DNA of 64,000 bases from Nocardiopsis sp. JB363 (lineage in GTDB: Bacteria > Actinomycetota > Actinomycetes > Streptosporangiales > Streptosporangiaceae). The position numbers and the translations under genes are program-made. Where the stretch lies: the NCBI RefSeq assembly GCF_900143625.1, contig NZ_FRFF01000072.1, positions 1 to 64,000 of the forward strand, in the 5' to 3' direction. The notes below the pieces were generated by a model. That model was not told the origin of the DNA. It did no database searches and saw nothing but the letters and a program-made list of their open reading frames with translations. Shown piece by piece: positions 50,462-59,354 of the stretch (positions are counted from its first letter, which is position 1; every line of letters starts with the position of its first letter).

Positions 50462-51210
50462 CTACTCGACCTTCGCGGCCTTCTTCTCGGCCTTCTCCGC
50501 CTCCGGGTCCACGTCCACCCCGGCCTCGGCCCGTTCGGTGTAGGCGTAACCGTCAGCGCGTTGAAGCAACCGAACATGCCGGTGGTGCACGCCTTGAACC
50601 ACCGTTCGACCGCTACGGATGTTGAACTTTCCACTGGCCCTGACCGCGACCCTGCCCACGTGAGTGCCCACCTTCTTGCCACGGGGGACGACGGCCCTGA
50701 CGAAGTCCCCCGTAGCGAAGCCGAAGAAGCGCTTCTGCCTGGGCATGAGCAGCCGAGGAAACCCATACCGGTCGCTCCTGGTTCGGGCATGGCTACCTCG
50801 ACCCGTGCACTCCGCGATCAGGACGGTGGACACGACCTCCCTGACCCCACTCGGCTCACCAAGGGCCAACGCATCCAGTGTGTGCGATTTGGGAAGTCCC
50901 CACCTGTGTCGATTCCACTTCGTGCGGCCACCTGAAGACACACTGGTAGGAAAACCATCCCGCAGCCTCCGCAACAGAGCCCACCTTGTGGACTGGACCA
51001 CCGCCGCGTCCCGAAGCGGCGCCCTCACCTGGGACAGAACCTTGGCAAGAGTCCGTGGTCTTCCCTGAAGGAATTCCTGAAGAGAGCGTGAGTCCTTATC
51101 CTGATTGCAGGGTCCACATGCGATGACCAGGTTCGACAACCGATCCGAGCCGCCTCTGCCACGGGGATGGATGTGGTCGATGTTCAACGGAACACCCGTC
51201 ACGCCACAGT
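50462..51210 (-). pseudogene. iscB: IscB RNA-guided nuclease, 3' part (split by IS)
   Basis: The C-terminal half of IscB, an ancestor-like relative of Cas9. From the insertion point it reads GVTGVPLNIDHIHPRGRGGSDRLSNLVIACGPCNQDKDSR (HNH domain with the DHIHP site), then the RuvC-III segment LPKSHTLDALALGE with its conserved His and Asp, and the C-terminal target-recognition part (YGFPRLLMPRQKRFFGFATGDFVRAVV) with a Lys/Glu-rich end. The 5' half lies at 52196-52799. Joining the halves across one copy of the 3-bp duplication restores a continuous frame. No stop or frameshift other than the insertion is seen. Confidence 0.87.
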
Positions 51211-52195
51211 GAGGTGATCTCAGCGATTTTGCTTCTCGATATTTGTCAGAGCCAACGCCGCTTGCACGATCGAGCCGATCTTGGATGGGCTCATCGTGGT
51301 GTGGCGCAGCACTCTCCATCGGCCGGTAAGCACGGCCATCGCGCGCTCGCCGATGCACCGCAGACCGCGTAGGAGCCGGTTGTGGGCCCGGTCATCGACA
51401 TGCCATCGGTGCTCGTCGACCTGGGGCGGACGCTTGATCGGGGTGCGCACACCCACTCCGGCGCCCTCGTAGCCAGAATCGGCCAGCGTCACCACCCCGC
51501 CGGCCATGGCCTTGTGCAAAAGCGGGAACACGTGCAGGCGGGCGGCGGTGATGTCAGCTGTGGATCCGGGCTCGACCTCAGACACCCACAAAGGTTCTCC
51601 GCGAGCGTCGGACAGGAACTGGATGTTGCCGCCGTGGCGGTGTTTGTGGCCGCTGTACCAAAGGTCGCTTTTGCCGGTGGGGCCCGGCTCCGCGCTACGG
51701 TCGGAAGGAAATAGTTTTCCGTCCAGGATCAGAGGGTCCTGCGGAACCAGACGGGCGTGTTCGAGCACTTCGTACAGGTCGGGGGCTTGGTCGGCCAGCA
51801 CGTCGACACCCTCGTCGATGTAGCGGTAGCCGGTGGCCCGGGAGATGTGGTTGTCCCTGGCCAGCGCTTCGATGGCCGTGTCATCGCGAAACCACCGCAA
51901 GATCAGGACCGCCTGTTTGTAGCAGGTCAGGGAGCGGGTTCCCGTGCGGGTGCCGCGGCGCCGGCGTTCGGCGTTCAGCAGAGCCGAAAGATGCCAAACG
52001 GTGGCCTGGTCCACGTCGAGGGTGGCAGTATAGGGAACCACGTGGAGCCTTTCATGGTGGTCCGGTGCAGATTCGACACCTCGCCTTCTACCTGGGGCTC
52101 CACGTCTGTGTCAGGGGAACGGAAGTTCACCCATGAATGCACTTCTCGTCTTGATTGTCCATTTCCTGCCGATTCCCAGTTACTGAGATCACCTC
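51211..52195 (-). mobile_element. IS5-family insertion sequence (ISL2-like), 985 bp, inside iscB
   Basis: Ends are inverted repeats: GAGGTGATCTCAG at 51211-51223 and its complement CTGAGATCACCTC at 52183-52195. Both sides carry AGT (51208-51210 and 52196-52198), a 3-bp target duplication of the form ANT/ANT complement typical of the ISL2 group. The single transposase gene fills most of the element and its stop codon lies inside one terminal repeat. Removing the IS with one AGT rebuilds Ala-Tyr-Cys-Gly of the IscB HNH region. Confidence 0.9.
51220..52041 (-). CDS. IS5-family DDE transposase
   Basis: A 273-residue transposase with an N-terminal helix-turn-helix (TAIEALARDNHISRATGYRYIDEG) and a DDE core: first Asp in PLILDGKLFPSDR, second in VTLADSGYEGAG, Glu in GERAMAVLTGRW. 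It appears intact, without frameshift. The likely start is the GTG at 52041. The frame is the same direction as the interrupted iscB. Confidence 0.9.
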   Translation of the reverse strand: MVPYTATLDVDQATVWHLSALLNAERRRRGTRTGTRSLTCYKQAVLILRWFRDDTAIEALARDNHISRATGYRYIDEGVDVLADQAPDLYEVLEHARLVPQDPLILDGKLFPSDRSAEPGPTGKSDLWYSGHKHRHGGNIQFLSDARGEPLWVSEVEPGSTADITAARLHVFPLLHKAMAGGVVTLADSGYEGAGVGVRTPIKRPPQVDEHRWHVDDRAHNRLLRGLRCIGERAMAVLTGRWRVLRHTTMSPSKIGSIVQAALALTNIEKQNR

Positions 52196-52799
52196 AGTAG
52201 GCACAGCTTCGATCCCACTTGGCCAGAAGATACTCGCGCGCCTCGAACCCATACAGCGTTCCGCGCTGGTACTCGACACCTTCCAAGGGCCGCCCCGCGG
52301 ACAGAGCATGAGTGTCGAACCGCGCCAACTCCATGTGGACCGTCCTCACCGGCACCCATCGAGCTATCCGCTCCACCCAACTCGCCACACTCTCCACCTG
52401 ATGCCGGAGCGAGGGCGGGAGCCAGCCACGCGCCCGACGCCTGTTGTGGAATCGAGGCCCTCGGTAGCGCAGGTTCCGGCTGCGCCTCGCTCTTCGCAGG
52501 CTGGAGCGTCGCTCCATCTTCTGGCGGATCCACCTGCCTCTATGCTCGATCACGAGGGCGAACCGGCTATGCCTCACACCGGAGCGTGCAGCGAATACCG
52601 CGATCCCCGTGTGTTTGGATCCAGGATCGACTCCGACCTCACAACCCTCCACTTCGGACTCGGCGAGTTCACGGTCCTTGAGCCGGATGACGAATGGTGT
52701 TCGTCGATGCACGACCGCCCGTCCGGCCTTGAGCAACTTTCTGGCCCGGGCCGGACGGCACGGATCCAACGGGCGTCCATGTCTGTCGATCACGAACAC
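52196..52799 (-). pseudogene. iscB: IscB RNA-guided nuclease, 5' part (split by IS)
   Basis: The N-terminal half of IscB: the PLMP-like domain (VFVIDRHGRPLDPCRPARARKLLKAGRAVV), RuvC-I GVDPGSKHTGIAV with the catalytic Asp, the Arg-rich bridge helix (RRSSLRRARRSRNLRYRGPRF), RuvC-II VHMELARFDTH with Glu, and the first HNH Cys in WDRSCAY. The frame then runs into the IS and stops. GTG 52799 is the best start, as IscB usually begins just before this VFV(I/L)D segment; the frame is open to 53039 but that part looks like guide-RNA DNA. Together with the 3' part a product of about 449 residues is restored. Confidence 0.85.
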
Positions 52800-53055
52800 G
52801 GAAGGGTGCACCTCACGGTGCTTCTCCCCGACCTCGATGAAGTCAGGGGTAACGCCGGCACCGCCAGGTGCGGCGGCTCCGGTCTCACCTCGCACATGTC
52901 CCGCAACGGCTGCCGTGGAGTGGCCTCCGAACCCCGTTTCGTCCCTGATCCCGGGGGTGTCTACTGATTCGGATTCCAGAGCAGGCCGCTGGTGAAGCAC
53001 GGCCTGGTGGGTCTTCCCACCTTTACGGAACGTAGCCAATATCAGTCACCTCTGA
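52800..53055 (-). ncRNA. Candidate omega RNA of IscB
   Basis: IscB guide RNAs are encoded just upstream of, and reading towards, iscB. This stretch holds several stable hairpins on the minus strand, such as GGTGGG-AAGA-CCCACC (about 53017-53032), AGGCCG with CGGCCT just after it, and a CCCCG/CGGGG pair near 52935. The guide would be at the 5' end, near or past 53055. Its boundaries are inference. Confidence 0.45.
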
Positions 53056-53118
53056 ACTCGTATCGGCTTGTGCTGGTAACGGCGGCCCCGGCCCCTTGGG
53101 ACGTGAAGCTTCCACCCA

Positions 53119-53448
53119 TCAGGCGGAGGATCCCGCTACGTAAGGCGTCTCGATGCGCGTTTCCGTCCGGAAGACACGGGTTTCACGGTTGGCCACACTG
53201 GAGCCGTCCCACAACAGCAACTCCTCGCGATGGCACACGAGCTCCTCGCCCTCCTCACCGAGCTCGACGTGACTGGAGCTGTACAGTCCCAGTTCGTAGC
53301 CCCTGGACAGTTCCTCGATCGTCCACCGGTAGAGCCCGCTGCCAGAGGGGATCTCCCCTTTCAGGTGATGGGTCACCAGGGTGAGGAAGGTAGGGGCTTC
53401 CTTCGGTTTCGGTGAGGCCCAGACGGCAGAGAGCAGGTAAGCATCCAC
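53119..53448 (-). CDS. Hypothetical protein
   Basis: A 109-residue acidic soluble protein starting MDAYLLSAVWASPKPKEAP, with GLYRWTIEELSRGYELGLYSS in the middle. The GTG start follows GAGGAG by 7 bp, which supports it as real. No motif or family is recognised. It is divergent from the XRE gene and shares a region with two palindromes. Confidence 0.55.
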   Translation of the reverse strand: MDAYLLSAVWASPKPKEAPTFLTLVTHHLKGEIPSGSGLYRWTIEELSRGYELGLYSSSHVELGEEGEELVCHREELLLWDGSSVANRETRVFRTETRIETPYVAGSSA

Positions 53449-53489
53449 GAAGTCACTCCTCTTAGCAGCTCCAGGATCTTACGGTAACA

Positions 53490-53526
53490 TGGATTAATCC
53501 ACCTAGTTGGAATATCTGATAGATAT
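53490..53526 (+). promoter_or_regulatory. Two palindromes between the divergent genes
   Basis: TGGATTAATCCA (53490-53501) is a perfect 12-bp palindrome and ATATCTGATAGATAT (53512-53526) a perfect 6-3-6 one, in an A/T-rich stretch 37-73 bp before the XRE gene. They are likely operators for that XRE protein. Confidence 0.5.
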
Positions 53527-53562
53527 GATTCAATCCGGCTCACACGATGCGCGGGGAGTTCG

Positions 53563-54399
53563 ATGGCTCAGGTGAACATCCGGCGGCACCGGCTCGGCCG
53601 CAAGCTCGCTGAGATCCGCAAACAGGCGGGATTCACACAGGCCCAGGTGGCCGACCACCTGGAGACCCTCCAAGGGTCCTTCGCACGCTACGAACGAGGC
53701 GAGCGCATCCCCAAGCGCGCGGTGCTTCACCAGCTCTTCAAGATCTACGAGGCCTCAGATGACGTTCGGCAGGAGGTCATGTCACTCTTCCGTCTCGCGG
53801 AACAGCCGAGTTGGTGGCATCCCTACCGCGATCTCCTACAGCCCGAATACGCGGCCCTGTTGGACCTGGAAGTGGACGCCTCGGAGATCCGGACCTATCA
53901 GGTGATCGTCCCGGGGCTCTTGCAAACCCCCGAGTACACGCGTCAGATCCTGCTGTACGGCCCGCAGGAGCTCGACGACGAAGAGGTCGAGCGGCGCCTT
54001 GAACTGCGCATGGCACGGCGGCAGATCCTCTCCCATGAGGCAAGCCCTCGTCTCCTGGCCCTCATGGACGAGGGCGCACTACGCCGAATCGTGGGAAACG
54101 AACAGGTGATGCGGGAACAGGTCCAGCACCTTCTGAACGTCTCAGGCCAAGCACAGACCTCGGTACAGATCGTGCCGTTCTCCGCAGGCGCCCACCCGGC
54201 CGCGGTAGGGGGCCTGACCCTGCTCGACTGTGACGATCGTCGAGTGGTCTACGTGGAGACCACCGTGGGTGAGCTGTTCTTGGACAAACCCACCGAGGTC
54301 ACCACCTCCGCTCGTGCTTTCGAGAGCCTGCTGGGCTTCGCGTTGAGTGTGAAAGAATCCCGTGAGCTGATGGAGAAGTACGTCGAGGAGTACTCGTGA
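53563..54399 (+). CDS. XRE-family regulator with DUF5753
   Basis: A 278-residue protein: an N-terminal HTH (LGRKLAEIRKQAGFTQAQVADHLETLQGSFARYERGER) and a C-terminal DUF5753 domain (WWHPYRDLLQPEYAALLDLEVDASEIRTYQVIVPGLLQTPEYTR). This pairs with the DUF397 gene that overlaps its end by 4 bp (GTGA). Such pairs are abundant in actinobacteria and regulate development or act like toxin-antitoxin-type modules. It may control neighbouring accessory genes; that is inference. Confidence 0.9.
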   Translation: MAQVNIRRHRLGRKLAEIRKQAGFTQAQVADHLETLQGSFARYERGERIPKRAVLHQLFKIYEASDDVRQEVMSLFRLAEQPSWWHPYRDLLQPEYAALLDLEVDASEIRTYQVIVPGLLQTPEYTRQILLYGPQELDDEEVERRLELRMARRQILSHEASPRLLALMDEGALRRIVGNEQVMREQVQHLLNVSGQAQTSVQIVPFSAGAHPAAVGGLTLLDCDDRRVVYVETTVGELFLDKPTEVTTSARAFESLLGFALSVKESRELMEKYVEEYS

Positions 54400-54602
54400 G
54401 GATCAAATCGAGCTTCAGCGGGCAGAAGGGGGAGTGCGTGGAGGTGGAGCAGGTCGGCGACGAGTTTCACGTCACGGACAGCAAGCACCCCGAACGTCCC
54501 GCCCACGTGTACACCCGTGGGGAGTGGCGTGCGTTCCTCCAGGGTGCACGTAACGGCGAGTTCGACTTCGACGTGTTCGATGTAGAGGGCGTCCAGGCCT
54601 GA
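54396..54602 (+). CDS. DUF397 protein
   Basis: A 68-residue DUF397 protein, with the typical SSFSGQKGECVEVEQVGDEFHVTDSKHPERP and a final GEWRAFLQGARNGEFD. It starts at a GTG overlapping the XRE stop. DUF397 partners bind and modulate their XRE regulators. Confidence 0.9.
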   Translation: MRIKSSFSGQKGECVEVEQVGDEFHVTDSKHPERPAHVYTRGEWRAFLQGARNGEFDFDVFDVEGVQA

Positions 54603-54617
54603 CATCCGGACCGAACG

Positions 54618-54647
54618 GGGCGGGGCATCCGAATCGGTGCCCCGCCC
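54618..54647. terminator. Bidirectional terminator
   Basis: A perfect 10-bp stem (54618-54627 with 54638-54647) between the convergent DUF397 and CmoA-like genes, close to both stops. It can serve both strands. Confidence 0.75.
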
Positions 54648-54651
54648 TCGT

Positions 54652-55380
54652 CTATCTCACCGCGAGGTAGACGACGAAGTTGTACCAGCGGAACACCTCA
54701 TCCACCCGAGAGAACCCCGCCTTGAGCAGTGCGTCACGATTCTCCGAGACACGGTACGGAACGAGGACGTTCTCCAGGGCTTCCCGCTTCTTCGCGATCT
54801 CGGTCCGGGAGTAGCCGCTGCGCTCCTTGTAGTCGTGGTAGAGGTCGATGTAGACCCGGGAGAGGTCGTTGTCGTCTCCAAGCACCTTCTCCCCCAGCAG
54901 CAACGCCCCGCCTGGTTCGATGGACGCACAGATCTTCGCCAGGACCGCGTCGCGCTGAGGCGGTCGAACGAATTGCAGGGTGAAGAGCATGATGACGACT
55001 CGTGCACCGGGGAGATCCGGCAGACATTCCACCGAATCCTCAAGGATGTCGACCTCGTGGCCGAGACCCTCCGCTCGAATCTTCTCCCGACACCGTGCCC
55101 GCATCGCGGCCGAAGGCTCCACACCCACGAACTTCACCCGGGTCTTCGGAGAGATCGCCTTCATCAGTCGGACCAACGTGTTCCCCGTGGAGGAACCCAC
55201 GTCGTAGACGGTCCCACCCTCCTCTTCGAGGAAGCTTCGACTGAGTTCGACGGACATCCTCTGGATCTCGTCGTAGAACGGGATGCTGCGGTCCAGCATG
55301 TCGTCGAAGACGTCCGCCACACCCTCATCGAAGACGAAGTCGCCCACCTGGGTCCTGTCCACGAAGATCTCGTCACGCAT
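54652..55380 (-). CDS. CmoA-like carboxy-S-adenosylmethionine synthase
   Basis: A 242-residue class I methyltransferase-fold protein that follows E. coli CmoA along its length: DFVFDEGVADVFDDMLDRSIPFY, the SAM loop VYDVGSSTGNTL, IMLFTLQFVRPPQR, PGGALLLGEK, and the KREALENVL segment with Arg199, part of the CmoA site that binds the prephenate-derived carboxylate. CmoA turns SAM and prephenate into carboxy-SAM, used for wobble uridine modification in proteobacteria. Here no CmoB is near; instead it overlaps the MccB-methyltransferase gene by 8 bp. In Bacillus and Yersinia microcin C-like clusters, carboxy-SAM feeds carboxymethylation of cytosine. That role is proposed here. Confidence 0.85.
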   Translation of the reverse strand: MRDEIFVDRTQVGDFVFDEGVADVFDDMLDRSIPFYDEIQRMSVELSRSFLEEEGGTVYDVGSSTGNTLVRLMKAISPKTRVKFVGVEPSAAMRARCREKIRAEGLGHEVDILEDSVECLPDLPGARVVIMLFTLQFVRPPQRDAVLAKICASIEPGGALLLGEKVLGDDNDLSRVYIDLYHDYKERSGYSRTEIAKKREALENVLVPYRVSENRDALLKAGFSRVDEVFRWYNFVVYLAVR

Positions 55381-57196
55381 CGAGACTCCTCTCCAAGACC
55401 ATGACCAGGAAGTAGGGGATGCGGCTCGACTTGTCGAAGATGACGGGATCTCGTTCCGCGATCAGCTCGTCGGGCTCTGGTTCCAGCACTCGACGCACGA
55501 GAAACCCCTGGCCGATGAACTCTTCGAAGTACCTGGACATCGTCCTGTGGTGGGTTCGAATCCCTCGGATCCTGACCTCGCCGTGCCGGTCCTCTCGATC
55601 CTTCAGGCATTCCCCCTCGACGAAGTAGTCATCGAGGACGTAGTGCCGGTACTCCCACCCTTGTGGGCCGGGAACCTTGTACCAACCGCCGCGATCCTTC
55701 ATCGGGTGTGGGAGCGACAGCACGAGACGGCCCCCGGGTTTGAGCGCCGAGTGAAGACTCCGAACACTGGCCGACAAGTCGGCGATGTGGTCCAGGACGT
55801 TGAGGCAACAAATAGTGTCGTAGCGTCCTTCAGCCTCGGTGAGGGCCTCCAGACCGGCACGATGCACCTCAACGCGCTTCTCCCACCCCTGGACACGGTC
55901 ACGAAGGATCCGCTCCATCGCCCCATCTGGCTCATAAGCGTCAACGTTCGCTCCCAGGGCCACGAGTCGATCCGTGACCTGCCCGGAGCCCGCACCTACG
56001 TCTGCCACCCTTTGCCCCTGGATCGACCCCACGAGTTCGGGAACGAGAGGATCGAGCAGAACCGCGTTGAAGGAATGCACTTCGCGTTCCTCCGCGTACT
56101 GAGCCGCGATGCCCTCCCAATCCGCCTTCGTGCTCTCTCCACATACGGAACAGCCGGCGTCGCGCTGACGAAACTCCTCCCAGGTGGTGTCGTACGAACG
56201 GGAGTCAATGAGCATCCGGCGTCCTTCCGTCACCGCGGGGAGCCCCAAGAGCCACCGGATCGCCTCATTGGCCTGTACCGATGCCACCAGAGCGTTCAGG
56301 GGTCCAAAACTCGGGGCCTGCCAGTGAGGGTTCAGCTCAACGTCGAGTGTTGGCTGCACGGAAACGCTGTCGCCTGTGTTCTCCTCCGTCTCCGGAAGAC
56401 TCTCGGCCTGCTCTTGGCTGCAAGGGAAACAAGGTGTCCTCGGTGGCAGAAGCAAGGGCCCCACACTGCCGTGCCCCTCGATGTATCCCGAGGCACTGAA
56501 CGGGATCCCCCGGCTCTGACAGGCGCGACCGGTCCAGAGGTGAACGTCGGCCGGACGGTCGGCGGACAGTAGAACGATGTCCGATCGCGCGGCCACCCGC
56601 CCCGCCAGATCGGAAGAAGTGAACGATTCGGGGATCGTGACCACTTCCAGGTCCGAACGGAGTTCGAGCAGTCTTTCCGCCGCGACGTCGACCTTGAGTC
56701 GGCCGACGTCCTTCTCCTTGAAGAGCGTTTGCCGGGTGAGGTTGGACAGCTCCACCACGTCACCGTCCGACATCACCAGACGTCCGACCCCGGCGGCGGC
56801 CAGATGCGTCGCCACATGGGTGCCGATTCCACCCATACCCACCAGACCCACCGTGACCTCGGAGAGCCGCTCCTGCGCGCCCTCGTCGACCCCCATGAGC
56901 TGAAAGAAAAGACCGTGGCGGTCGTACCGGCCACGGTCTTCGGGTGCGGGGACAAGGACACGGGCCTGTTCCAGGTCAGCGATCATCGCTGTGCATTCGG
57001 CCCGTGTCCAGCCGGAAAGCTCGGCTGCCGCCTCTACCAGTCCTTCACGTTCCCTTGGCCGAATACAGCCTTGGAGCAACGGAATGAGGAACTCGGGTGG
57101 TTCCTCAAGGTGCCACGCGTTCGGTGGAAGGGTCCCTATGCGGAGACCACCATCGGTTCGACGAATCGAGAGGTAGGGCGGCAGCCAAAGCTTCAT
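55373..57196 (-). CDS. MccB-type peptide adenylyltransferase fused to a SAM methyltransferase
   Basis: A 607-residue fusion. Residues 1-85 match the MccB peptide-clamp region; 86-355 are an E1-like (ThiF) domain with GRYDRHGLFFQ, the ATP loop GMGGIGTH (120-127), NLTRQTLFKEKDVGRLK (152-168), SADRP, and two zinc Cys pairs (256/259 and 349/352). These follow E. coli MccB motif by motif; MccB joins a nucleotide to the C-terminal Asn of a small peptide. Residues about 356-607 form a class I methyltransferase (VADVGAGSGQ at 397-406, PGGRLVLSLPHP), probably the carboxymethyltransferase using carboxy-SAM. The ATG directly follows the aspS stop with no gap. Confidence 0.88.
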   Translation of the reverse strand: MKLWLPPYLSIRRTDGGLRIGTLPPNAWHLEEPPEFLIPLLQGCIRPREREGLVEAAAELSGWTRAECTAMIADLEQARVLVPAPEDRGRYDRHGLFFQLMGVDEGAQERLSEVTVGLVGMGGIGTHVATHLAAAGVGRLVMSDGDVVELSNLTRQTLFKEKDVGRLKVDVAAERLLELRSDLEVVTIPESFTSSDLAGRVAARSDIVLLSADRPADVHLWTGRACQSRGIPFSASGYIEGHGSVGPLLLPPRTPCFPCSQEQAESLPETEENTGDSVSVQPTLDVELNPHWQAPSFGPLNALVASVQANEAIRWLLGLPAVTEGRRMLIDSRSYDTTWEEFRQRDAGCSVCGESTKADWEGIAAQYAEEREVHSFNAVLLDPLVPELVGSIQGQRVADVGAGSGQVTDRLVALGANVDAYEPDGAMERILRDRVQGWEKRVEVHRAGLEALTEAEGRYDTICCLNVLDHIADLSASVRSLHSALKPGGRLVLSLPHPMKDRGGWYKVPGPQGWEYRHYVLDDYFVEGECLKDREDRHGEVRIRGIRTHHRTMSRYFEEFIGQGFLVRRVLEPEPDELIAERDPVIFDKSSRIPYFLVMVLERSLDA

Positions 57197-58969
57197 CTAG
57201 CTCCTTTTTTTGTCTCCCTGAGGGATGACCGTTCGGATGTGCACGTCACTCAGCTGCTTCTCAGAGACGGCCGCGGGGGCACCCATCATGAGGTCCTGGG
57301 CGTTCTGGTTGAGCGGGAAGGCGATGGTTTCGCGGATGTTGGGCTCATCGGCCAGCAACATGACGATCCGGTCGATGCCAGGAGCGATGCCACCGTGAGG
57401 CGGAGCACCGAACTTCAGGGCCTTGAGCATGCCGCCGAACTCGGCTTCGACGGCGTCCTTGTCGTAGCCGGCGATCTCGAAGGCCTCGTACATGATCTCG
57501 GGCGAGTGGTTCCGGATCGCGCCGGAAGACAACTCCACACCGTTGCAGACGATGTCGTACTGCCAGGCCAGAATGTCCAGAGGGTCCTTGTTGAGCAACG
57601 CGTCCATCCCGCCCTGCGGCATGGAGAACGGGTTGTGGCTGAACTCGATGTCGCCCTCGTCGGAACGCTCGAACATCGGGAAGTCCACGATCCAGCAGAA
57701 GCGGTAGACCTTCTCCTCCGCCAGGCCCGCGCGCTTACCGGCCTCGACACGGACCGGGGCCATGATCCGGTTGATCTCGGCCTCGTCCTCACTGGCACAG
57801 AAGAACAGGCCATAACCGGGACCGGCGCCGAGGGTGGTCAACAGCTCGTCAGAGATTTCGGTGACGAACTTGGCAATGGGACCGGTGAGTTCGTTGTTCT
57901 CCCCGACCTTGAGCCAGGCCAGTCCCTTGGCGCCCTGTTCGACGGCGAAGTCGCCGATGCCGTCGTAGAACTTGCGCGGCTGCCCGCCCACGTTCGGCAC
58001 GGCCAAGGCGCGGACCTTCTTACCGGCGAAGGCGCGGAAGTCGGTCTTGTCGAACAGCGCGGTGACGTCGAGCATCTTCATCGGTACTCGCAGGTCCGGC
58101 TTGTCGGTGCCGTACCACTCCAGGGCGTCCCGGTAGGCGATGCGCGGGTAGGGAGAGGTGATCTCCCAACCGGTGGAGAACTCGCGGAAGACGTCGGTCA
58201 TGACCTTCTCGATGACCTCGAAGACGTCCTCCTGCTCGACGAAGCTCATCTCGACATCGAGCTGGTAGAACTCACCGGGCGAACGGTCCGCGCGGCTGTC
58301 CTCGTCCCGGAAGCAGGGGGCGATCTGGAAGTACCGGTCGAACCCGGCGATCATGAGGAGCTGCTTGAACTGCTGCGGCGCTTGGGGCAGGGCGAAGAAC
58401 TCGCCGGGGTGCAGGCGCGAGGGGACCAGGAAGTCGCGAGCACCCTCAGGGCTGGAGCTGGTGAGGATCGGGGTCTGGAACTCATTGAAGCCCAGGTCCG
58501 TCATCTTCTTACGGATGGCGGCCACGACCTGCGAACGCAGCATGACGTTGCGGTGCATCCGCTCACGACGCAGGTCCAGGAAGCGGTAGGTCAGGCGACG
58601 CTCTTCGGAGGTGTTGTCCTCGGGGAAGACCGTGAGGGGAAGCTCCTCGGTCGTTCCAAGGATCTCCACCTCCGCCGCCTCGATCTCGATCTCACCGGTG
58701 GGCAGGTTCGGGTTGATGTTCCCGGCGCTACGCGCAGAGACCTCGCCCGTGACCTGAATCACCGATTCCTTGGAGATTCGGCTGAGTTCCTCGAACACCG
58801 GGGATTCGGGGCGAGCCATGAGCTGCGTGACGCCGTAGTGGTCGCGCAGGTCGACGAAGAGCAGACCACCGAGATCCCGGCGGTTGTGCACCCAGCCAGA
58901 AAGGCGCACCTGCTGCCCGACGTGCTCCTTACGGAGCTGACCACACGAATGAGTCCTGTAACGATGCAT
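57197..58969 (-). CDS. aspS: Aspartyl-tRNA synthetase
   Basis: A 590-residue bacterial-type AspRS: OB anticodon domain ([26 protein letters not shown]), class II motifs [24 protein letters not shown], the GAD insertion, and the motif 3 region [39 protein letters not shown]. It resembles Streptomyces AspRS, so it may be the only, housekeeping copy. Yet the next gene begins on the base after its stop and a precursor-like gene lies just upstream. Processed microcin C inhibits AspRS, so this enzyme could be the target or a tolerant, self-protecting version. The ribosome site is weak. Confidence 0.95.
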
Positions 58970-59114
58970 GAGTTACCAAGTCCACTAACTACACGGCTGG
59001 GTGAGGATGCCGGGGAGCCCGCGGCCGGGTCCGGCTGAAGGCATGGCATGCCCTTGAACAACTGGGATCCTACCGCCAACCACGCCACCTGGCCTCCTGG
59101 TTCAAGTGGCACAC

Positions 59115-59138
59115 GGACCCCCGAAGGCCCGGGGGTCC
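59115..59138 (-). terminator. Hairpin between the precursor gene and aspS
   Basis: GGACCCCC (59115-59122) pairs with GGGGGTCC (59131-59138), 11 bp past the 21-codon gene. No T-run follows. In the E. coli microcin C operon a stem-loop between mccA and mccB favours precursor transcripts; this may play the same part. Confidence 0.6.
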
Positions 59139-59149
59139 GATCCCGGCCG

Positions 59150-59215
59150 CTAGTTGGCGACCACGGTGGTGCTGCCCTTGACCTTGCGGACCGGGGTCAT
59201 CGAGATACGGCGCAT
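59150..59215 (-). CDS. Microcin C-like precursor peptide, ends in Asn
   Basis: A 21-codon gene: the product starts MRRISM, has the basic core PVRKVKG and ends TTVVAN, followed by TAG. GAGGAG lies 6 bp before the ATG, an excellent ribosome site in a region where nothing else is coded. MccA peptides are short, keep their initiator Met, need no leader removal, and must end in Asn, the residue MccB modifies. Its size, basic character and terminal Asn fit that, and it lies upstream of aspS and the MccB gene on the same strand. It is followed by a hairpin and preceded by a palindrome-rich promoter. Too short for standard gene finders. Confidence 0.72.
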   Translation of the reverse strand: MRRISMTPVRKVKGSTTVVAN

Positions 59216-59266
59216 GCGGCTCTCCTCGGGCTGTATCGAACACCGCCGGGATCGACGGCACTCGAA

Positions 59267-59327
59267 ACGCTACGCCAGCATGCTGGAATATTCCAAGGCT
59301 TGGAAGGAAACCATATCTCTGAAGATA
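59267..59327 (-). promoter_or_regulatory. Palindrome-rich promoter of the precursor gene
   Basis: On the minus strand TTGGAA (59291-59296) and TAGCGT (59267-59272) lie 18 bp apart, giving a start about 45 bp before the ATG. Overlapping perfect palindromes cover it: CCAGCATGCTGG (59275-59286), TGGAATATTCCA (59284-59295) and TTCCAAGGCTTGGAA (59291-59305), plus TATCT/AGATA (59314-59327). One or more regulators probably act here. Confidence 0.55.
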
Positions 59328-59354
59328 GGAAATTCCACGACGCGTAAGACCGGG

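Follow-up and report, generated by a model that had tools for sequence, protein, structure and literature searches.

A microcin C-like gene cluster with an embedded aspS at the native aspS site of Nocardiopsis sp. JB363: aspartyl-tRNA synthetase as a candidate immunity factor

The window analyzed here, a 64,000-nucleotide stretch of the genome of Nocardiopsis sp. JB363 (G000; contig NZ_FRFF01000072.1), presumably a soil bacterium, carries at its aspS locus an 8.8 kb island with a microcin C-like gene cluster whose product is probably a peptide-(carboxymethyl-nucleotide) and in which the only aspartyl-tRNA synthetase (AspRS) gene of the genome is embedded. We favor the reading, at a probability of roughly two in three, that this AspRS provides immunity by target substitution and that the island displaced the essential native aspS. 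MccB would join a nucleotide to the C-terminal Asn of the 21-residue MccA, its fused methyltransferase domain would add a carboxymethyl group donated by the carboxy-SAM of CmoA/MccS, and the processed product would inhibit AspRS, while the divergent type 1 (T1) AspRS encoded in the cluster would be poorly inhibited by it, or made in excess, so that the producer survives. The abutting or overlapping of aspS with mccB would tie immunity to the poison-making enzyme. In the window lineage the island would have inserted at this locus, taking the place of the native type 2 (T2) aspS and becoming the sole source of an essential enzyme. The features are listed below.

50462..50533, minus strand: scar, the final 24 codons including the stop of the displaced native T2 aspS (sequence comparison)
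50537..51358, minus strand: iscB, HNH part, which shares its reading frame with the aspS scar (sequence and Pfam match)
51220..52041, minus strand: IS transposase (DDE_Tnp_4) separating the two iscB parts (Pfam search)
52194..53039, minus strand: N-terminal (RRXRR) part of the interrupted iscB (PF14239, 219 bits)
52878..53139, minus strand: HEARO (IscB omega RNA; 58.8 bits, E 4.5e-11, model positions 1-211 of 211)
53119..53448, minus strand: small protein, oriented divergently to the regulator and conserved in G575 (54%) and G018 (49%)
53563..54399, plus strand: HTH/DUF5753 regulator, kept beside the cluster in G575 (85%) and G018 (62%)
54393..54602, plus strand: DUF397 small protein, after the regulator (PF04149)
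54652..55380, minus strand: cmoA/mccS, carboxy-SAM synthase (TIGR00740)
55373..57196, minus strand: mccB, with an N-terminal region, an MccB/ThiF nucleotidyltransferase and a C-terminal methyltransferase domain, the proposed carboxymethyl transferase (domain search, PDB matches, tree)
57197..58969, minus strand: aspS, coding for a T1 AspRS of 590 aa; sole aspS in the genome and proposed immunity gene (NF001750); its stop codon abuts the mccB start codon
59114..59139, minus strand: hairpin directly behind mccA, before aspS (stem in all four loci)
59150..59215, minus strand: mccA, 21 codons, MRRISMTPVRKVKGSTTVVAN, C-terminal Asn (same length and VVAN end in all four loci)
59216..59352, minus strand: mccA upstream region with two 12-bp palindromes and a promoter-like pair (palindrome search; promoter by eye)

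Gene content and predicted product of the cluster

The initial annotation had placed on the minus strand a 21-codon gene with a terminal Asn, aspS, a ThiF/MccB-methyltransferase fusion and a CmoA-type gene; all were present in that order, but the extent given for the unit (54652-59350) was too small, the island spanning about 50462 to 59352. The order mccA-hairpin-aspS-mccB-cmoA was common to all four clusters found, which lie in two Nocardiopsis genomes (the window genome and G575), in another genus of the same family (G018) and in a MAG named Dactylosporangium (G580). At each of these loci aspS is flanked by mccA on one side and mccB on the other, and its junction with mccB is abutting in two loci and a four-base overlap in two. 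For finding cluster loci in genome contigs a single-protein scan returned none and an alignment scan returned two loci; in two of the genome searches scoring was limited to the best three candidates per genome.

The reading as a microcin C-like system of the carboxymethyl type was supported by the mccB product, a protein of 607 residues in which the ThiF domain occupies residues 100-350 and methyltransferase matches lie at about 381-500. Its best PDB matches were MccB chains (115 bits vs 95 for ThiF). A ThiF or MoeB identity, which would have spoken against the reading, was ruled out by the tree, in which the domain formed a group with MccB of E. coli (ultrafast bootstrap 100) that left out ThiF and MoeB of the same species. 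With its mean pLDDT of 52, the AlphaFold model of MccB was left out of all conclusions. The protein encoded at 54652-55380 scored 215 bits against the CmoA equivalog TIGR00740, above its cut-off of 193, and 155 bits against the narrower PRK15451, below its 285. A carboxy-SAM synthase was found by whole-genome search (E 1e-30) in 2 of 40 genomes of the genus, exactly the two that are mcc-positive.

The short gene, on whose conservation the reading also leaned, was of equal length and in the same place in all four loci carrying this type of mccB, with Asn as the C-terminal residue of each precursor. Between the window and G575 it showed four synonymous and no amino-acid differences, and within the genus all 38 gaps between MBL and aspS at mcc-negative loci lacked an mccA-like short gene. 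Judged from these sequence comparisons, it is not a chance ORF. The hairpin stem behind it was present in 4/4 loci despite unrelated sequences (MFE -39.7 to -49.8; z against mononucleotide shuffles -1.8 in the window, -2.2 in G575, -6.9 in G018 and -6.6 in Dactylosporangium), and appears to be the counterpart of the terminator that separates mccA from mccB in E. coli, according to the text available of PMC6495379, with the difference that here aspS comes next. Of the palindrome-rich promoter proposed upstream of mccA, the two perfect 12-bp palindromes are there, but neither is intact in G575; TTGGAA at about 59291-59296 and TAGCGT at about 59267-59272, read by eye, form a putative promoter pair. 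An unrelated short ORF at L062, one of the 38 mcc-negative gaps, likewise ends in Asn.

Probable replacement of the native aspS

The score of the cluster aspS against NF001750 was 796 bits (cut-off 443). Two close relatives, G113 and G560, carry a T2 aspS at the same site, where identity is about 91% in either flank, and the native T2 aspS of these sister genomes is 44% identical to the cluster aspS. At the site of the relatives' T2 aspS the window has the island and a 72-bp T2 scar. The scar was matched best by the relative G113 (72 bp, 94%). All 16 T2 loci gave matches, 21-72 bp long, and none of the 26 other loci scanned gave one at E 1e-6. In the scar, the displacement of an essential housekeeping gene by an antibiotic cluster would be directly visible.

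The aspS type of the two mcc-positive Nocardiopsis genomes is in conflict with their placement in the rpoB tree, which comprised 35 of the 39 fetched genomes (G547, G551, G555 and G565 were dropped by the motif filter, and G562 had no rpoB match). In this tree G000 grouped with G113 and G560, which both carry T2 (UFBoot 100), and G575 with G574, likewise a T2 genome (94); the nodes that would put G046 and G548 around G000 were weak (53 and 54). In the T2 gene tree T2 was shared within both of these host clades (support 89 and 100). It seems that G575 went through the same aspS swap; a T2 scar was not found in it. The T1 tree was built without G552 and G571, whose aspS is split in two pieces, and with L158 represented by residues 1-483.

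In the Dactylosporangium MAG there are two aspS genes in different contexts, a T2 copy elsewhere, adjoining a short MBL match and a gene read as hisS, and a T1 copy in the mcc cluster. The latter has a one-base frameshift, due either to misassembly or to a broken gene, and its contig comes from a MAG. In this MAG the target gene is present in a second, divergent version within the cluster, albeit frameshifted; the window genome has the cluster copy only. This second copy, together with the gene order kept in all four clusters, rules out as a sole account that a housekeeping aspS stands beside the cluster by chance.

AspRS as candidate immunity factor and alternative readings

At 31 alignment columns where E. 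coli AspRS and the T2 AspRS of G113 agree, a different residue was common to all 30 T1 copies compared (L158 being represented by residues 1-483 only), including the changes S193A, Q226S, H449N and S487A (numbered as in E. coli). The motif 2 loop of T1 AspRS has one additional residue. T1 AspRS may be predicted to resist the product. It may be noted that several observations weaken the case for aspS as the immunity gene. T1 is common without mcc, being the sole aspS match (E 1e-100) in 22 of the 40 genomes of the genus, all of these without mcc, and T1-like copies occur in eight genomes of another genus, probably Streptomyces. No residue was common to the mcc-positive T1 AspRS and missing from the other T1 copies. 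Neither an MccC-type exporter nor any other transporter was seen by Pfam among the genes filling the island (50462-59352), and none of the known immunity genes (MccE2, MccF, MccG, MccH) was seen among them either. Finally, another MccB adjoins a HIT protein on a different contig of the window genome (G000:C77); this HIT protein could confer immunity in trans. A limited scan of the window genome and three relatives showed no Asn-terminated precursor gene near the second MccB.

By another account, unlikely in our estimate but worth weighing, the mcc genes once settled on either side of a T1 aspS resident in some actinobacterium, the AspRS has no role in immunity, and protection comes from a gene elsewhere, such as that of the HIT protein. 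Here aspS would travel along because homologous recombination in the flanks moves the whole stretch. The Nocardiopsis and G018 clusters do lie at an aspS locus beside an MBL gene, and comparison with three mcc-negative T1 loci showed conservation over the 125-136 bp ahead of aspS, hence aspS has retained its own leader; the frequency of T1 in genomes without mcc and the second MccB with its HIT protein fit as well. This account is opposed by the Dactylosporangium unit, which stands in another context and still has a T1 aspS despite the T2 aspS present, and by the enclosure of aspS between mccA and mccB, with mccB abutting or overlapping it, in 4/4 loci. That T1 always arrived with mcc was rejected, as a search at E 1e-3 through stretches of about 9-11 kb detected no relics of mccB, cmoA or the regulator beside aspS at any of the 38 mcc-negative loci, of which 22 are T1.

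We regard it as improbable that the peptidyl-nucleotide stays inside the cell without an exporter and regulates or arrests translation via AspRS, for example in a stress or defence response. The island's coding space without a transporter, the dedicated HTH/DUF5753 regulator conserved in the window, G575 and G018, and the adjoining of the AspRS gene to the gene for the maker of an AspRS poison would agree with such a device, but an exporter may sit elsewhere in the genome, and at the Dactylosporangium locus genes for an amino-acid permease and an acetyltransferase lie upstream. Moreover, all McC-like compounds studied are described, in the text available of PMC9239234, as acting by a Trojan-horse mechanism, the mature compounds being exported by dedicated transporters. 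Hardly any credence is due to a different product, with the MccB-like protein activating another peptide end or the methyltransferase performing plain methylation and AspRS not the target: the methyltransferase domain does match general methyltransferase models only, and the product is predicted from genes, but the C-terminal Asn of 4/4 precursors, the MccB grouping, the restriction of the carboxy-SAM synthase in the genus to genomes with this mccB, and a plan close to that of Nocardia vaccinii, for which in vitro cytidylation and carboxymethylation of the peptide are described (PMC9239234, text available), all speak against it.

Relation to known systems

The fusion of a methyltransferase to MccB, taken in the initial annotation for an undescribed arrangement, is in fact known: as far as the text available of these papers goes, bifunctional MccB with a separate MccS occurs in N. 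vaccinii and Yersinia pseudotuberculosis (PMC9239234), and the Bacillus amyloliquefaciens type is likewise (PMC12250964). What is new is aspS inside the cluster, for which the annotation's claim held, no earlier case having been found in the literature searched. The N. vaccinii mcc cluster encodes a 21-aa MccA, bifunctional MccB, MccS and MccG in the text available of PMC9239234, and the window cluster of this fellow actinobacterium resembles it in the 21-residue Asn-terminated precursor, the MccB-carboxymethyl transferase fusion (here predicted) and the separate carboxy-SAM synthase. In contrast, N. vaccinii has mccC, mccD, mccE1, a homologue of mccX, and mccG for an immunity peptidase (same source), none of which was recognized in the window island, which has aspS instead. 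The carboxymethyl-cytidine microcins of B. amyloliquefaciens and Y. pseudotuberculosis have the fused C-terminal carboxymethyl transferase that is predicted here, with MccS as donor enzyme, and, unlike in the window, no aspS is mentioned for their clusters in the text available (PMC12250964, PMC9239234). Clusters of the mcc type were already known in Nocardiopsis: in Nocardiopsis kunsanensis and Hyalangium minutum immunity is conferred by MccH, a HIT phosphoramidase, and the text available of PMC7157772 does not mention aspS, which the window cluster has; a likely counterpart lies elsewhere in the window genome (G000:C77).

Self-resistance through an extra synthetase was not found described for microcin C in the literature searched. 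Antibiotic clusters with an extra insensitive aminoacyl-tRNA synthetase for self-resistance include those of albomycin (SerRS), mupirocin (IleRS) and indolmycin (TrpRS). The principle, a cluster bringing along its own version of the target, would be the same here, except that in the window the cluster copy replaced the native gene and was not added to it. The known routes of self-protection in microcin C producers are export, acetylation and cleavage of the poison, and a target-carrying cluster would add target substitution to these routes. It would further predict that T1 AspRS resists AspRS-directed Trojan-horse compounds, and suggests one reason for the exchange of aminoacyl-tRNA synthetase genes between bacteria. 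Tentatively, and leaning slightly against it ourselves, we extend immunity by target substitution to an island that swaps out an essential target, bringing an insensitive AspRS while the native aspS is lost; since the sole aspS lies inside, the island could not be lost as a unit, and the toxin cluster would be self-stabilizing like an addiction module, with the T1/T2 patchwork across Nocardiopsis as a record of an arms race around AspRS poisons.

As regards the remaining genes, the small protein at 53119..53448 had no Pfam match, and a GNAT protein gene lies upstream of mccA in L158. The HEARO match is full length yet under the gathering score (58.8 vs 83 bits). Homing of the IscB guide into aspS at the T2 locus was considered and rejected, as exact matches of 13 and 16 bases occurred in only two of four loci, with no clear target. 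Remnants of iscB are also present in G575.

Genes of the mcc island

The genes named in the initial annotation were all found on the minus strand, and the Pfam and NCBIfam assignments agree with them:

59150-59215, minus strand: mccA, encoding MRRISMTPVRKVKGSTTVVAN
57197-58969, minus strand: aspS, aspartate--tRNA ligase (796 bits against a cut-off of 443, NCBIfam)
55373-57196, minus strand: mccB, 607 residues, with ThiF (1.4e-49) and methyltransferase domains (Pfam)
54652-55380, minus strand: CmoA-type protein (TIGR00740, 215 bits against a cut-off of 193)

Against solved structures, the 607-residue protein scored higher with MccB chains (115 bits) than with ThiF (95) or MoeB (84). Grouping with MoeB/ThiF had been named beforehand as one outcome that would speak against the microcin C-like reading. 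The four fused MccB proteins and a second MccB of the window genome (G000) grouped with E. coli MccB at an ultrafast bootstrap of 100 in a tree that also contained ThiF and MoeB of E. coli and further ThiF proteins from actinobacteria; this grouping ruled out a ThiF or MoeB identity. The fused proteins keep NLTRQ and SAD-P, while ThiF and MoeB carry NLQRQ and CTDN instead; the two CxxC pairs are uninformative, as they are common to all three. The fusion of a methyltransferase to MccB, initially taken to be undescribed, is known from other systems, together with a separate carboxy-SAM synthase. The CmoA-type protein matched the solved CmoA chains 1im8 and 4gek in a structure database search and reached 155 bits with PRK15451, below the cut-off of 285.

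An HTH/DUF5753 regulator and a DUF397 protein adjoin the mcc genes (Pfam). No exporter or known immunity enzyme was found among the genes of the island with Pfam and NCBIfam, and the island is considered to be devoid of both because the listed genes fill its coding space. A 109-residue protein without a Pfam match (53119-53448) is divergent from the regulator and is kept in G575, a second mcc-positive Nocardiopsis, and in G018, from another genus of the family.

Distribution and conservation of the mcc unit

A family search with mccB matched 57 of 150 genomes (E 1e-20), with a full-length relative in two, the window genome and G018 (60%). Scoring the best three candidates per genome, we found no relative beyond the window genome in 396 phylum genomes (E 1e-40) or 394 class genomes (E 1e-60). 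The mccB of G575, 74% identical, was reached through the aspS search of 40 genus genomes, in which mccB was sought at every aspS locus and, for those in the family, phylum and class samples, in whole genomes. A collection of named genomes gave two mccB loci, in Nocardiopsis sp. ATB16-24 (taken as G575) and in the Dactylosporangium sp. Site_C28 MAG (L158, 61%). CmoA (E 1e-30, whole genomes) was present in 2/40 genus genomes, exactly the two with the fused mccB.

The order mccA, hairpin, aspS, mccB, cmoA was the same in all four loci. Each precursor has 21 residues, MRRISMTPVRKVKGSTTVVAN in the window and G575, MRRIKMSRVRKTKGSTTVVAN in G018 and MRRITLVRITQSKGTTSVVAN in Dactylosporangium, and the window and G575 genes differ by four synonymous and zero amino-acid changes. 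The short gene is conserved in these related loci. No mccA-like gene occurred in the 38 mcc-negative gaps between aspS and the neighbouring MBL gene in the genus; one such gap (L062) holds a short ORF ending in Asn and unrelated to mccA. The hairpins 3' of mccA are unrelated in sequence, and their z scores against mononucleotide shuffles were -6.9 in G018 and -6.6 in Dactylosporangium but only -1.8 in the window and -2.2 in G575. The E. coli cluster, as described in PMC6495379, has a terminator hairpin separating mccA from mccB, which yields a short mccA message. In the window and in G575 the aspS and mccB genes abut; in G018 and L158 they share a four-base overlap. The regulator is 85% identical to that of the window in G575 and 62% in G018, while L158 holds a distant one (31%).

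Two AspRS types and displacement of the resident aspS

The window genome has one aspS, of a type (T1) found in 24/40 genus genomes at 84-100% identity; the remaining 16 have only the other type (T2, 43-45%), at the same site and adjoining the same MBL gene. T1 is the rarer kind in the family and phylum samples. Of the 150 family genomes 142 gave a match at E 1e-100, T1 in eight (76-100%) and the other kind in 134 (42-47%), and among 296 phylum genomes (E 1e-175) T1-like copies of 67-70% occurred in eight genomes of one genus, by inference Streptomyces, and copies of 49-50% in three genomes of another family. T1 is by no means confined to mcc clusters, since 22 of the 24 T1 genus genomes lack mcc at the aspS locus. 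Across the genus, a single site is occupied by one or the other of two AspRS types that are only ~44% identical, and T2 appears in three rpoB clades: an essential gene has been replaced in place repeatedly. In G552 (L061) and G571 (L060) the sole aspS match at E 1e-100 is in two pieces, probably through sequencing errors.

DISPLACEMENT

50462-50533: last 72 bp of a T2 aspS, following an HNH (IscB) fragment in the same frame

The flanks of the T2 genomes G113 and G560 are ~91% identical to the window on both sides, to 50533 and from ~59352 on; the interval between them spans 8.8 kb in the window and in G113 consists solely of T2 aspS and its leader. The scar matched G113 best (94%); 16/16 T2 loci matched it, over lengths of 21-72 bp, and the 26 other loci scanned gave no match at E 1e-6. 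Therefore a T2 aspS was once present there and was then displaced. A midpoint-rooted rpoB tree of 35 of the 39 genomes placed G000 with G113 and G560 (support 100); the next nodes, adding the T2 genomes G548 and G046, were weak (54 and 53). The flanking DUF349 and MBL proteins gave trees with the same placement of G000. G575 grouped with the T2 genome G574 (94), nested among T2 genomes (99). Both host clades came out as groups in the T2 gene tree (support 89 and 100), which makes T2 ancestral in both. Both changes from T2 to T1 coincide with the mcc cluster, that of G575, where no T2 scar was found, being read from the trees alone. Such displacement of the essential aspS by an mcc cluster is unusual. 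The T1 tree placed the window copy, though weakly supported there, near T1 sequences from an adjacent Nocardiopsis clade; its donor may therefore be close. At the end of the island (50462-53139) lie an iscB split by an IS transposase and a HEARO/omega RNA, with the scar abutting, and G575 has decayed iscB remnants in the matching position.

Proposed product, proposed immunity and a likely second pathway

In known systems MccB attaches a nucleotide to the C-terminal Asn of a peptide. The window cluster resembles that of Nocardia vaccinii, whose MccB, according to PMC9239234, adds both a cytidylyl and a carboxymethyl group in vitro to an MccA of 21 residues; the same source and PMC7157772 describe processed microcin C-like compounds as inhibitors of AspRS. 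By the same chemistry, the MccA of the window would be nucleotide-modified at its Asn and carboxymethylated, and immunity of the producer would come through a T1 AspRS tolerating the product. An alignment of 30 T1 copies (L158 by residues 1-483 only) showed 31 columns with one residue common to E. coli and G113 (T2) AspRS and a different one common to every T1 copy; these T1-wide changes include S193A, Q226S, H449N and S487A, and the motif 2 loop of T1 has one extra residue. From known AspRS structures, these positions are presumably close to the adenylate site. No residue in this comparison separated mcc-positive from other T1 copies, and resistance, if real, would therefore belong to T1 as a whole or be an effect of dosage.

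The Dactylosporangium MAG has two aspS genes, a T2 copy (712 bits) and the T1 copy of the mcc cluster, the picture expected of a target resistance copy. This support, which is independent of the Nocardiopsis loci, calls for caution, as the sequence is a MAG and its T1 gene shows a one-base frameshift. The T2 copy follows a short MBL match and a gene that was recognised as hisS by eye, in what looks like the housekeeping locus. Genes for an amino-acid permease and a GNAT acetyltransferase lie directly upstream of mccA (L158, 4799-6894) and could serve in transport and extra immunity; MccE2 is an immunity protein of the acetyltransferase type in E. coli. The initial annotation knew of no described system with aspS inside an mcc cluster, and mainly in open-access literature, including the accessible parts of PMC12250964, PMC7157772, PMC7136475, PMC9239234 and PMC6495379, we found no earlier report of it or of AspRS substitution as microcin C immunity.

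On another contig of the window genome (L025, G000:C77, 312-1903) lies the second, E. coli-like MccB, 36% identical to the window MccB and 39% to the E. coli plasmid MccB, followed by a HIT-domain protein. A limited scan found no precursor gene nearby. The pair is likely an MccB/MccH cluster by analogy with its counterpart, the known cluster of Nocardiopsis kunsanensis, so this one genome appears to encode two pathways of the microcin C type, and the HIT protein may protect in trans.
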